A stretch of 46,540 nt of DNA from Gammaproteobacteria bacterium (GTDB lineage Bacteria > Pseudomonadota > Gammaproteobacteria > Steroidobacterales > UBA11654): contig NZHP01000019.1 in NCBI GenBank assembly GCA_002691465.1, positions 1 to 46,540 on the forward strand. The letters run 5' to 3'. Numbering within the stretch: position 1 is the stretch's first letter; the number at the start of each line of letters is the position of its first letter. Position numbers and translations under genes: made by a program. The notes beneath the pieces were generated by a model that worked only from the letters and a program-made list of their open reading frames with translations, made no database searches and was not told the DNA's origin. This document shows positions 11,121 to 17,816 of the stretch, one piece after another.

Positions 11121-13502
11121 ATGTCAAAACAAGAACTAGATCATTACATATCTTTATTAAACTCCCATGAGTTAGACGATCTAATGGAAAAAGCCAAAGA
11201 GATCAGAGGAGATAATAAAAAGGTCATTACCTACTCTAAGAAAGTATTTATTCCTTTGACGGAGCTTTGTCTAGATGTCTGTCATTACTGTACTTTTGCG
11301 AAGGCACCGAAAAAGCTCGATGCTCCCTACCTTGAGCCAGATCAAGTCCTTGCAATTGCAGAACAAGGCAAGGCGCAATTCGTCAAAGAGGCTTTGTTTA
11401 CCCTCGGCGAGAAACCGGAAATGAGGTATCAGGTCGCGAAAGATCATCTCCAAAAATTAGGCTTTGAGACAACGATTGAATATCTTGGCTCAATGTCGAA
11501 ACTGGTTTATGAAGAAACCGGTCTACTGCCGCACTTAAATCCTGGAAACATGACGCTTCTAGAAATGGAAAAACTGAGAGAATATTCGGTCTCCATGGGC
11601 ATCATGCTGGAATCAAGTTCAGAGCGGCTTTGTGGCAAGGGAGGTCCGCATTTTGGATCGCCAGACAAACAACCAGCAACGCGACTGCAAACAATGAAGA
11701 ATGCGGGGAAACTGAGGATACCAATCACCACTGGCATACTCATCGGCATCGGTGAAACCATTGAAGAGCGAATTCAGAGTCTTCTTGATATAAAAAATCT
11801 GCACAGAGAATACGGTCATATCCAAGAAGTAATCATCCAGAACTTTATTCCAAAAGAAAACACAAGAATGAAAAAACATTCTCCCGCATCCAAAGAGGAT
11901 CTTCTTTGGACGCTTTCGGCAGCAAGAATCATTTTTGGCAAAGACATGAATATACAATGCCCGCCCAATCTCAATTCTGATTACCTTGACCAAATTTTAG
12001 ACTGTGGAATCAATGACTGGGGCGGTGTTTCACCAATTACCATCGATCATGTGAATCCCGAGTCGCCGTGGCCGCAGATAGAGCAATTAGAAAAAATTAC
12101 AAACAACAAGGGAATGGAACTTGTTGAGCGTTTAGCAATTTATCCGGAATACATAGAAGATCAATCCTGGTATGACAAAAACTTGCATTCAGGAATCTTG
12201 GAGCTTTCCGACTCATCTCGATATGGAAGACATGATCAATGGCGCTGTGGTGAATCACTGAGCATTCCTGCGTCAGGAAAACACGACCTATGGGTGAACA
12301 AAAAAAGTGGCGATGTTTCAGATGAAATCAAGAAGATACTTGATAAATCCATTCATGGATTCGATTTGGATCATGATGAAATTACCAAACTCTTTCATAC
12401 CAGAGGAGACGATTATCATCTCGTCCTAAATCACGCAGACCGACTCAGGCAGAAAATAAATGGCGACGAGGTCACCTATGTGATCACCAGGAATATCAAT
12501 TACACAAATATCTGTAAATACTCGTGTCATTTTTGTGCATTCTCAAAAGGGAAAACGAAAGAGAATTTAAGAGGAAAGCCTTATCTGATTAACAATGATG
12601 AGGTTGCAGATAGAGCATTAGAGGCATGGTCTAAAGGGGCGCATGAAGTATGCCTTCAAGGTGGAATACACCCTCATTACGATGGCTACACATACATCGA
12701 TATTTGCAAAGCAATAAAAGAACGCGTTCCGGAAATACACATACACGCATTTTCTCCCTTGGAGGTAACGCATGGGGCGAGCTCATTGGGTCTGCCGATT
12801 GATGAATATCTTCAAAAACTCAAAGAGGCAGGATTGAGCACAATGCCTGGGACTGCCGCAGAAATTTTGGATGACGCTGTCAGAGAAAATATTTGTCCTG
12901 ATAAATTGACTTCTGAGGAGTGGATTAATGTCATTAAAACCGCACACAGAGTTGGAATAAAAACAACGTCTACTATTATGTTTGGACATACCGAACAACC
13001 CGCTGACTGGTCAACCCACCTGATAAAACTAAGAGACCTTCAAAAAGAAACCGGTGGCATTACGGAATTTATACCACTCCCATATGTGAGCATGGAATCA
13101 CCCATGTATAAGAGAGGGAATTCAAGACCTGGTCCGACATTCAATGAGGTTTTGCTGATGCATGCGGTGTCGAGAATAGCTTTGAATCCTCATATTAAGA
13201 ATATTCAAGCAAGCTGGGTAAAGCTTGGGAAGGAAGGGGCATTGAGTTGTCTCAATGCAGGAGTCAATGACATGGGCGGTACATTAATGAATGAATCCAT
13301 ATCAAGAGCTGCTGGCAGTATTCATGGACAAGAGTTTGAAGCAAATAGGATGGAAGAATTCATTAGAAACTCTGAGAGAAGACCTCAATTGAGAAATACT
13401 ACCTATGAACCAATTCAATCTAGGATAAATTCAGAAATATCATATGATTTAAGCATGGCTTACATGCAAACATTTATGGATAGCGCACACCCAGTTGTGT
13501 GA
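11121..13502 (+). CDS. fbiC: Fused CofG-CofH, 7,8-didemethyl-8-hydroxy-5-deazariboflavin (Fo) synthase, FbiC type
   Basis: 793 aa with two radical-SAM halves. The N-terminal CofG half has C-x3-C-x2-C at Cys50, Cys54 and Cys57 (CLDVCHYC). The C-terminal CofH half has Cys465, Cys469 and Cys472 (CKYSCHFC). Together they make the deazaflavin Fo from tyrosine and the pyrimidine 5-amino-6-ribitylamino-uracil. CofG-then-CofH order and total length match actinobacterial FbiC; archaea generally use two separate proteins. It ends the F420 run, 43 bp after cofC. Its TGA directly abuts the stop of the convergent DUF4491 gene. Confidence 0.96.
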   Translation: MSKQELDHYISLLNSHELDDLMEKAKEIRGDNKKVITYSKKVFIPLTELCLDVCHYCTFAKAPKKLDAPYLEPDQVLAIAEQGKAQFVKEALFTLGEKPEMRYQVAKDHLQKLGFETTIEYLGSMSKLVYEETGLLPHLNPGNMTLLEMEKLREYSVSMGIMLESSSERLCGKGGPHFGSPDKQPATRLQTMKNAGKLRIPITTGILIGIGETIEERIQSLLDIKNLHREYGHIQEVIIQNFIPKENTRMKKHSPASKEDLLWTLSAARIIFGKDMNIQCPPNLNSDYLDQILDCGINDWGGVSPITIDHVNPESPWPQIEQLEKITNNKGMELVERLAIYPEYIEDQSWYDKNLHSGILELSDSSRYGRHDQWRCGESLSIPASGKHDLWVNKKSGDVSDEIKKILDKSIHGFDLDHDEITKLFHTRGDDYHLVLNHADRLRQKINGDEVTYVITRNINYTNICKYSCHFCAFSKGKTKENLRGKPYLINNDEVADRALEAWSKGAHEVCLQGGIHPHYDGYTYIDICKAIKERVPEIHIHAFSPLEVTHGASSLGLPIDEYLQKLKEAGLSTMPGTAAEILDDAVRENICPDKLTSEEWINVIKTAHRVGIKTTSTIMFGHTEQPADWSTHLIKLRDLQKETGGITEFIPLPYVSMESPMYKRGNSRPGPTFNEVLLMHAVSRIALNPHIKNIQASWVKLGKEGALSCLNAGVNDMGGTLMNESISRAAGSIHGQEFEANRMEEFIRNSERRPQLRNTTYEPIQSRINSEISYDLSMAYMQTFMDSAHPVV

Positions 13503-16328: not shown

Positions 16329-17228
16329 ATGAATGAATTTATAATTGTTTTTAGAGAAAGCCTAGAGGCCTGCCTTATCGTAGGAATCATATACACACTT
16401 CTTGAAAAGAATAATTTAATAAAGGAAATCAGACAGCTATGGGCAGGTGTTGGCGCTGCAATCATTGCCAGTATTTTTGTAGCTTTAGCACTTAATAATA
16501 TTAAAGAATCTATAGGAAATGAATCCTATACTGCTCTCTTCGAAGGTGTTTTCATGTATATCACTGCGGGTTTACTTTGGTATGTGATTTTTTGGTTATC
16601 TAAACATGTTAGTGACAGAACAGGGCTTGAGAATGAAACTAAAAATGCAATGCAAGCTTCAGGTTGGGGAGTCTTTCTTGTGGTCTTTTTTGCAATTCTC
16701 AGAGAAGGCTTTGAAACAGCAATCTTTTTAATGGGCAGTCTCTCAATGACAGGCTCTTTCTCTTATGTCGGCTTTATTCTAGGCATGTTAATTGCAATCA
16801 TGATTGGCTATTTTATTGTCATTCAAGGCAGAAAAATAAATCTGAGATCATTTTTCAGAGCAACAACATTCTTATTAGTGCTTTTTGCATCAGGAATGGT
16901 CGCTTATGGAACGCATGAAATGGAGGAATTCCTAGTCAAAGGTGATCGTTTAGAGGTGGTCGGCCTGCAAGATAAATCAGAAATTAATCGAGTGTGGGAT
17001 ATACTCCAACCAAAAACGACTCTCGATGAAAATGATAGTGCATTTTTGTACTCATATGATCTAAATGGAAAAGAAAAATACACTCACCTACTCCATGACA
17101 AAGGTCGGGTTGGTGTTTTTTTGAAAGGATTTTTAGGCTACAACAGCAATCCGAATTGGGTTGAGTTCATTTTTTGGATTTTGTCCTTAGTTCTTGGACT
17201 CAAGCTTTGGAGAAAATTCTATTTCTGA
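16329..17228 (+). CDS. FTR1-family high-affinity iron permease
   Basis: 299 aa with about seven hydrophobic segments. Both REXXE iron-binding motifs of the FTR1/EfeU family are present: R9-E-S-L-E13 in helix 1 and R125-E-G-F-E129 in helix 4. FTR1 proteins move iron across the inner membrane. Yeast Ftr1 works with a ferroxidase and E. coli EfeU with EfeO and EfeB, neither of which is adjacent here. The C-terminal part carries a ~70-residue soluble loop between helices. AAGGAA at 16319-16324 is the ribosome binding site. The Fur box upstream indicates iron control together with the TonB receptor. Confidence 0.9.
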   Translation: MNEFIIVFRESLEACLIVGIIYTLLEKNNLIKEIRQLWAGVGAAIIASIFVALALNNIKESIGNESYTALFEGVFMYITAGLLWYVIFWLSKHVSDRTGLENETKNAMQASGWGVFLVVFFAILREGFETAIFLMGSLSMTGSFSYVGFILGMLIAIMIGYFIVIQGRKINLRSFFRATTFLLVLFASGMVAYGTHEMEEFLVKGDRLEVVGLQDKSEINRVWDILQPKTTLDENDSAFLYSYDLNGKEKYTHLLHDKGRVGVFLKGFLGYNSNPNWVEFIFWILSLVLGLKLWRKFYF

Positions 17229-17240
17229 AGAAATTCAAGC

Positions 17241-17267
17241 CTTGAATATTATTTAATCAACCATATA
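17241..17267 (+). promoter_or_regulatory. Candidate heat-shock (sigma32-type) promoter of the Hsp20 gene
   Basis: CTTGAA (17241-17246) and AACCATATA (17259-17267) resemble the sigma32 elements CTTGAA and CCCCATnTA; the second agrees at six of eight defined positions. The 12-bp gap is slightly shorter than usual. Transcription would start near 17274. Confidence 0.5.
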
Positions 17268-17328
17268 TCTCCTTTGTGGATGCCTAAATTGGGTCCACAT
17301 AAATAATTAACTTGCTTAAATAAGGAGA
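17268..17328 (+). promoter_or_regulatory. Possible RNA thermometer masking the Hsp20 ribosome binding site
   Basis: The Shine-Dalgarno AAGGAGA (17322-17328, five bases before the ATG) is perfectly complementary to TCTCCTT (17268-17274). Between them a second hairpin pairs TGTGGA (17275-17280) with TCCACA (17294-17299), stacked directly on the first helix. Masking of an Hsp20 ribosome binding site by leader pairing is the logic of ROSE and fourU thermometers, although the sequence does not match those families. Caution: a start at the sigma32-like promoter would remove most of the masking strand. Confidence 0.45.
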
Positions 17329-17333
17329 ACATT

Positions 17334-17783
17334 ATGGTAAATACATTATTTGATACAGTCTGGAGAGACATCTCTCCATTTGCTGTTGGTTTTGATAGAA
17401 CATTTGATGCGCTGTCAATCATGGCAAATTCAAAATCACAAAGCATTAACTACCCTCCATACAATATCCGGAAGGTCAGCGATGAAAAATATACGATTGA
17501 ATTAGCAATAGCAGGATTTGAAGAGGATGATCTTGATTTGGAAGTCCAAGGAGAAACTCTCACTATTTCTGGTAACAGATCAAACGAAGCATCAGAAGGT
17601 CTAGTTCATCAAGGTTTGGCTTCTAGAAATTTCGTCAGAAAATTTGTAATTTCTGATGATGTGGAAGTCAAAGGTGCTGCCCTCTCAAATGGCATGCTCT
17701 ACATTGGCATGGAAAGACTTATCCCTGAACATCGTAAGCCCAAAAAAATAAGTTTAACGACTAAGAAAAAATTATTGGGATAA
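17334..17783 (+). CDS. Small heat shock protein, Hsp20 family
   Basis: 149 aa, similar in size to IbpA. The alpha-crystallin domain covers residues ~38-140: YPPYNIRKVSDEKYTIELAI, then AGFEEDDLDLEVQGETLTIS and the FVRKFVISDDVEVKGAALSNG segment, where the A-x-L-x-N-G pattern is diagnostic. The C-terminal I-x-I/V anchor is weak. As an ATP-independent holdase it would keep unfolded proteins soluble. The N terminus MVNTLFDTVWRDISPFAVGF resembles IbpA-type proteins (aromatic-rich, D-R-x-F-D). A strong AAGGAGA precedes the ATG, a heat-shock-like promoter lies upstream, and a terminator follows. Confidence 0.93.
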   Translation: MVNTLFDTVWRDISPFAVGFDRTFDALSIMANSKSQSINYPPYNIRKVSDEKYTIELAIAGFEEDDLDLEVQGETLTISGNRSNEASEGLVHQGLASRNFVRKFVISDDVEVKGAALSNGMLYIGMERLIPEHRKPKKISLTTKKKLLG

Positions 17784-17792
17784 GAAGGCTTT

Positions 17793-17816
17793 GGGGAGGT
17801 CAATCGCCTCCCCTTT
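17793..17816 (+). terminator. Rho-independent terminator after Hsp20
   Basis: GGGGAGG (17793-17799), a 7-nt loop and CCTCCCC (17807-17813) form a perfect 7-bp GC-rich stem followed by TTTGCATT. The short U-run is modest, but the stem is the strongest in the window. It lies between Hsp20 and the convergent membrane-protein gene. Confidence 0.75.

Follow-up and report, generated by a model that had tools for sequence, protein, structure and literature searches.

A predicted ROSE-type RNA thermometer in the hsp20 leader of a marine gammaproteobacterial family, with counterparts ahead of phage hsp20 genes

Does the leader of this small heat-shock gene sense temperature, and if so, which of its strands holds the ribosome binding site? 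The question is raised by a stretch of 46,540 nucleotides (the window), contig C39 of a gammaproteobacterial genome (G000) of 1.4 Mb in 41 contigs, where a gene for an IbpA-type small heat-shock protein follows an iron permease gene after a gap of 105 nt (Table 1). This gap holds CTTGAA, CCATATAT, a first hairpin (hairpin I) and the Shine-Dalgarno sequence (SD). A sequence-only reading had described an Hsp20 leader with a heat-shock promoter and an SD hidden by a seven-base strand upstream. The gene and its leader are as described there, and the promoter was rightly recognized. The idea of a thermometer-like leader with a hidden SD also holds up, with promoter and leader conserved, but the masking strand does not: the partner of the SD is CUUGCUU in a second hairpin (hairpin II). 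The leader is very probably a short two-hairpin ROSE-type RNA thermometer behind a sigma32-type promoter, its function being predicted from anatomy, conservation, homology to the Rfam family ROSE_3, the presence of rpoH and the self-repression residues of the protein. It adds a member to a known thermometer class; taken alone, the window widens the range of this thermometer by one family of marine gammaproteobacteria, which is streamlined and uncultured.

Table 1. Features of the hsp20 locus (window positions) and of the viral leaders mentioned in the text (locus positions).
Feature	Position	Strand	Basis or remark
FTR1-family iron permease gene, upstream of hsp20	16329..17228	+	PF03239, E 4.5e-43
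Sigma32-like -35 box CTTGAA	17241..17246	+	sequence; CTTGAA in 7/7 host-type leaders
Sigma32-like -10 box CCATATAT (CCATAT = 17261-17266)	17261..17268	+	14 nt past CTTGAA; aligned in orthologs
Masking strand UCUCCUU of the sequence-only reading	17268..17274	+	complement of 17322-17328; upstream of or at the expected start
Predicted 5' UTR of promoter-derived RNA, 60 nt, with putative start	17274..17333	+	ROSE_3 match 17274-17339 from model position 1; analogy with P. putida ibpA
Hairpin I, 9 pairs, one unpaired G (17282), apex UGCC...GGG	17275..17299	+	pairing in 6 leaders; covariation in 48 leaders
Hairpin II: CUUGCUU (17311-17317), loop AAAU, AAGGAG (17322-17327)	17311..17327	+	invariant in 6 distinct leaders
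Shine-Dalgarno AAGGAG	17322..17327	+	sequence; 6 nt upstream of ATG 17334
hsp20, encoding an IbpA-type small heat-shock protein of 149 aa	17334..17783	+	ORF; Pfam PF00011, E 1.8e-17
Terminator-like stem, 3' of hsp20	17793..17813	+	consensus scan (4 sites vs 3.3 expected in the scanned region)
Viral leader, S-PM2	L189:229-288
Viral leader, P-SSM2	L190:194-249
Viral leader, P-SSM3	L188:216-270
Fourteen viral leaders with CTTGA[AC]-25 nt-TATAAATA	L117, L128-L130, L145, L149-L151, L156, L158, L166, L168, L171, L184

The published sigma32 consensus reads NNCTTGAA-N(13-18)-CNCCATAT (PMC3669281). In the window, CTTGAA serves as the -35 box and is followed after 12 nt by AACCATAT, a -10 box of the CCATAT type at a spacing 1 nt below the published range. 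The genome carries rpoH (TIGR02392, 372.7 bits, above cut-off), and the distance from CTTGAA to the apex of hairpin I is 40-41 nt in all seven host-type leaders. For P. putida ibpA, the start has been mapped 61-62 nt before the AUG at a sigma32-type, RpoH-dependent promoter (PMC3669281). By analogy, the window transcript would start near 17274, immediately before hairpin I. The ROSE_3 match begins at the same base, which had already been proposed as the transcription start in the sequence-only reading.

The leader downstream of this putative start resembles the ROSE-like class in several respects. It is the 5' UTR of a small heat-shock gene, it folds into two hairpins (the class has two to four) of which the 5' one is stable, and its 3' hairpin pairs the motif U(U/C)GCU imperfectly with the SD: UUGCU (17312-17316) lies opposite AGGA (17323-17326) with G17314 unpaired, and the stem contains one U-G pair. 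The ROSE_3 model (RF02523) matches with 34.6 bits (E 1.2e-5 per genome) over its full length (model positions 1-69), a score short of the 43 bits that Rfam has curated as the gathering (reporting) threshold for this family, which every relative tested also fails to reach. The Pseudomonas ibpA ROSE element (PMC3669281; RF02523) shares with the window the sigma32-type promoter, the UTR of about 60 nt and the small heat-shock gene, as well as a stable hairpin I with an AUGCC...GGGU apex and a hairpin II in which U(U/C)GCU faces the SD. In the two-hairpin leader of P. putida, heating opens hairpin II and raises translation (PMC3669281). The window leader differs in being AU-rich, in scoring below the Rfam cut-off and in having a hairpin II that is predicted to be weak. 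Given the Pseudomonas-like layout, the length of the UTR and the rpoH gene, the leader would by its anatomy be a short ROSE-like thermometer. The classic ROSE leaders of gammaproteobacterial ibpA, which were compared from genomes of the class, likewise place UUGCU or UCGCU opposite AGGA before the start; many of them read CATATTGCT...GGAGGATATG and lack the AACTTGCTTAA...AAGGAG form that is common to the window's family and to phages. With fourU thermometers the window leader shares an SD in a labile stem, but it has no run of four consecutive U facing the SD, the feature that defines fourU; the partner of the SD is CUUGCUU instead. The leader had been called unlike ROSE or fourU in sequence, which is correct for fourU and mistaken for ROSE, whose UUGCU motif is contained in the described stretch and had been overlooked.

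How well is this structure kept among relatives? ROSE_3 scores the orthologous leaders of G002, G003, G006, G008 and G009 at 32-37 bits and that of G001 at 27, leaving the G010 leader unmatched. In an alignment (A1) of six distinct orthologous leaders (G000, G008, G003, G006, G010 and G001), all six keep CTTGAA and hairpin I, and in each TTAACTTGCTTAA ... AAGGAG is uninterrupted. The two hairpins together are paired in 89 of 89 cells, a share that falls to 41-58% on sliding the partner by 1-3 columns; a shuffle control of this pairing (98/500) says little because the sequences are so few. The host family shows no variation in hairpin II and, within the host leaders, one pair of hairpin I has changed on both sides, from G-C to A-U. 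A covariance model (R1), built from 34 leaders with the window among its training rows, finds a single match in the window's genome (E 3.6e-14), and a leader of this type is present in nine of the 11 genomes of the family. In the R1 search, G005 was without the leader and G004 had only one, on a phage contig.

Further matches of these searches lie outside the hsp20 leaders of the family. Within G000, the only other ROSE_3 match (contig C8, 17.5 bits) is antisense within an ORF; it and its counterparts in G002 and G004 are taken as chance (antisense in an ORF in G000 and G004, the same sequence in G002), and extra matches of the pattern ACTTGCTT...AGGAG in G004 and G005 are read in the same way. 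Locus L056 in G025 gives a 26.4-bit match. R1 also recovers a leader that had been left out of the model and stands ahead of a different gene in G007 (E 1.1e-10). There, at G007:C65:15299-15359 (L045:1492-1552, minus strand), a sigma32-like box and a ROSE-type leader precede a gene for a DUF4389 membrane protein (PF14333, E 1.4e-18).

Beyond the bacteria, cyanophages and other marine phages (loci L077-L196) carry a ROSE-type two-hairpin leader before hsp20. Among the distinct leaders examined, the SD-hairpin motif occurs in 7/7 of host type, 69/72 viral and 23/49 bacterial ones, 19 of these 49 belonging to a distant Hsp20 group. A stricter motif pattern is found in 50 of 59 viral hsp20 leaders versus one of 226 other leaders at the same loci. 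R1 recovered 48 of 50 sources selected from 110 viral loci and 10 isolates, including 14 of the 16 outside its training set, and missed S-TIM5 and L097. Its isolate matches include S-PM2 (E 7.2e-7), Syn1 (2.1e-6) and Agrobacterium phage Atu_ph07 (1.5e-4), as well as S-CAM8, P-SSM2, P-HM1 and others, and the match in Pseudomonas phage Paride is weak (0.037). Rfam recovers hardly any of these leaders: of 19 loci, ROSE_3 matched only L161 (25.4 bits). In P-HM1 (L191), the leader match spans 210-267 and the annotated hsp20 start is at 214; the annotated GTG start is therefore probably about 51 nt too far upstream.

The 48 aligned matches show changes on both sides in 7/9 pairs of hairpin I and 2/6 pairs of hairpin II; the covariation in hairpin II, which is modest, comes only from distant leaders because inside the host family the hairpin does not vary. 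Over these leaders, 121 covarying cells were observed versus 35.9 (sd 5.6) in shuffled and 18-37 in slid alignments, in an alignment that was fitted to the structure and has related, non-independent rows. Of the 76 leaders of host type or viral origin that bear the motif, 71 have a hairpin I with the apex Y-G-C-Y ... R-G-G. The arms of hairpin I, of which 44 different 5' versions occur, pair at no fewer than five of six places in 90% of leaders and in 4.4% when arms are swapped between leaders, a comparison that is flattered by taking the best candidate per leader as the observed arm. In the window, this apex (17281-17293) repeats the ROSE core, Y-G-C-Y opposite R-G-G with one G unpaired, in a hairpin with no SD, and is perhaps a protein-binding copy of that core.

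A box resembling T4 late promoters is present in 51 of 71 viral leaders, with the apex of hairpin I usually following 15-20 nt later (36 of the 46 leaders with both features). Given the box-to-apex spacings in host and viral leaders, both kinds of promoter would place the RNA start close to the base of hairpin I. Fourteen viral hsp20 leaders, mostly from close relatives, have CTTGA[AC] exactly 25 nt upstream of the T4-late-like TATAAATA, and the two may form a joint sigma32 (heat) and late promoter. We lean towards a wider reading, in which ROSE would be the standard hsp20 leader of marine T4-like phages and the window gene would belong to a phage-linked line; the chaperone, needed late in infection and made from a late-type promoter, would be translated only upon heat or once misfolded protein has titrated Hsp20 away, with hairpin I, which repeats the ROSE core but has no SD, resembling a further copy for a protein to read. 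The hsp20 of cyanophages is a core gene whose use is unproven and for which a role as scaffold has been suggested (PMC3037559). If the reading holds, ROSE would be at work in a new setting, a lytic phage whose core chaperone is gated by a thermometer of bacterial type, and the phage leaders make it testable whether phage Hsp20 is made on heat, on aggregated protein or on both.

Temperature-dependent leaders on phage genomes have precedents in lambda cIII (PMC4166951) and the fourU element of SPbeta blyA (PMC10586365), which resemble the phage hsp20 leaders in this respect but are of non-ROSE type and have no small heat-shock gene downstream. None of the matches listed for thermometers, ROSE, IbpA, phages and cyanophage hsp20, a set of titles and abstract openings from which subscription journals are mostly absent, describes a ROSE element in a phage. 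By term search, the available text of a cyanophage genome comparison (PMC3037559) does not contain "thermometer", "hairpin" or "untranslated", and that of a study of cyanophage small heat-shock proteins (PMC3827213) does not contain "promoter", "untranslated", "upstream" or "temperature".

For the window leader, we infer the following course of events. Heat would raise sigma32 and initiate transcription at about 17274, directly before hairpin I. Hairpin II would, at growth temperature, hold AAGGAG in its imperfect stem with CUUGCUU; heating would melt this weak hairpin and free the ribosome site, with hairpin I staying folded. By analogy with IbpA of E. coli, Cedecea and Vibrio, Hsp20 may also bind the leader of its own mRNA and keep translation low as long as no aggregates sequester the protein. 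These IbpA proteins repress their translation through the ROSE 5' UTR, for which R93 is required and R97, K98 and Y34 are important (PMC10474464). Could the leader then be chiefly an operator for Hsp20 that senses aggregation, with temperature being secondary? This is conceivable, though we think it rather unlikely; the putative binding of Hsp20 and melting are not exclusive. Residues matching all four of those named, at positions assigned on the E. coli IbpA sequence, are present in 7/7 host-type Hsp20, the window's included. R93 is matched in 77 of 83 viral Hsp20 and R97, as R or K, in 75, and the conservation of the apex in the SD-free hairpin I would equally suit a protein ligand. Against an operator as the chief function, position 98 is K or R in only 10 of the 83 viral proteins, and the six without a scored R93, all of them named isolates (L189-L193 and L196; in four the pattern is simply unmatched), still have ROSE-like leaders.

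Thermosensing by the ROSE-type leader would depend on how the SD opens, and for the window leader the folding prediction is equivocal on this point. Using an energy model that ignores the non-canonical pairs of ROSE, hairpin I (17274-17300) is predicted at -11.5 kcal/mol and hairpin II alone at only -0.3 kcal/mol at 37 C. For 17274-17345, the SD is predicted to be unpaired with a probability of 0.13 at 5 C, which climbs to 0.64 at 50 C. Once 36 nt of coding sequence are added, the SD is predicted to be mostly open at all temperatures (0.61-0.72). The 37 C minimum fold is without hairpin II, and in the ortholog L005 the probability is nearly flat (0.34 to 0.39). In the 34 leaders of alignment A2, compared with 38 other SD leaders as controls, the SD is predicted to be more deeply buried: the mean probability of being unpaired is 0.19 in host, 0.21 in viral and 0.51 in control leaders at 10 C, and 0.42, 0.38 and 0.65, respectively, at 50 C. 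Alternatively, the conserved hairpins might merely stabilise the mRNA or tune translation constitutively, without thermosensing. The stable hairpin at the 5' end and the small temperature effect in folds that include coding sequence agree with such a role, but the invariant CUUGCUU/AAGGAG pairing with its ROSE motif and the tie of this motif to hsp20 leaders would be left unexplained, which makes it improbable.

The seven-base strand of the sequence-only reading was thought to mask the SD in read-through RNA and, heat-induced RNA from 17274 escaping it, to allow control in two directions. The complementarity is there: TCTCCTT (17268-17274) and AAGGAGA (17322-17328) form seven perfect pairs, the stem TGTGGA/TCCACA adjoins them as the described second helix, and among 28 window genes with an SD that were examined only hsp20 reaches a seven-base complement. 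The minimum fold of 17229-17353 uses the mask pairs (-26.1 kcal/mol, z -2.43), and no terminator-like site is listed by the consensus scan between the permease gene and hsp20, so read-through into hsp20 is possible. However, when the 85 nt upstream are shuffled by mononucleotide, 73 of 2000 trials also yield a perfect SD-touching complement of at least seven bases, which puts the mask only weakly above chance. Over the six distinct leaders, only 71.4% of mask cells are paired, about as many as with the partner slid by -3. The mask is retained in three of them (seven pairs in G000, seven with one G-U in G008, six in G003), missing in G006 and G001 and largely missing in G010 (alignment A1). Compensatory changes in relatives, the check that had been proposed, number zero for the mask and are found in hairpin I (above). 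Moreover, the strand is promoter DNA that follows the -10 box and leads up to the expected start, and heat RNA would therefore lack it. In RNA that contains it, the SD is predicted to be unpaired with a probability of 0.01-0.04 at all temperatures from 5 to 50 C, so the mask would be a shut-off and not a thermometer, a role in which it was rejected. Control in two directions is unsupported because its logic depends on this unconserved mask, and the model is thus very improbable, the mask being most likely incidental.

Where does the Hsp20 behind the ROSE-type leader come from? The window protein shares 46-47% identity with its best viral matches and 68% with L197 (G232:C1:265071-265514), from a 1.2 Mb genome of another family of the class that has the same leader before Hsp20. 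The L197 protein nests in the Hsp20 clade of the window's family (98/75 with G010), which may mean transfer. In a careful tree of 73 rows, reduced from 139 by dropping 12 viral rows that were long or divergent, 19 bacterial rows of distant kind and viral near-duplicates (the 139-row tree was a quick search only), the seven host-type rows join 27 viral rows (95/80). Constraining the host rows with 30 gammaproteobacterial rows was not rejected (p-AU 0.23); the window Hsp20 may descend from phage, or transfer may have gone the other way.

The Hsp20 on the phage contig of G004 (L011, G004:C28:71080-71466) is 100% identical to one in IMG/VR UViG_3300020373_000074 and is a phage Hsp20 whose contig has been binned with a bacterial genome. 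The ORF before it resembles T4 RegA. In S-PM2, P-HM1 and ACG-2014f, hsp20 is preceded by a gene with the annotation RegA.

Two other elements of the window were noted. A single long ORF (11121-13502, plus strand) resembles a fused FO synthase for the cofactor F420. The end of the contig (46345-46540, plus strand) holds an IMES-1 RNA (RF02034, 104 bits), an RNA known from metagenomes on which the literature search found nothing. IMES-1 is above cut-off in 0/9 genomes of other families of the order, in 0/14 control genomes and in 10 of the 11 genomes of the window's family, a distribution that marks this family as a host group for the RNA.
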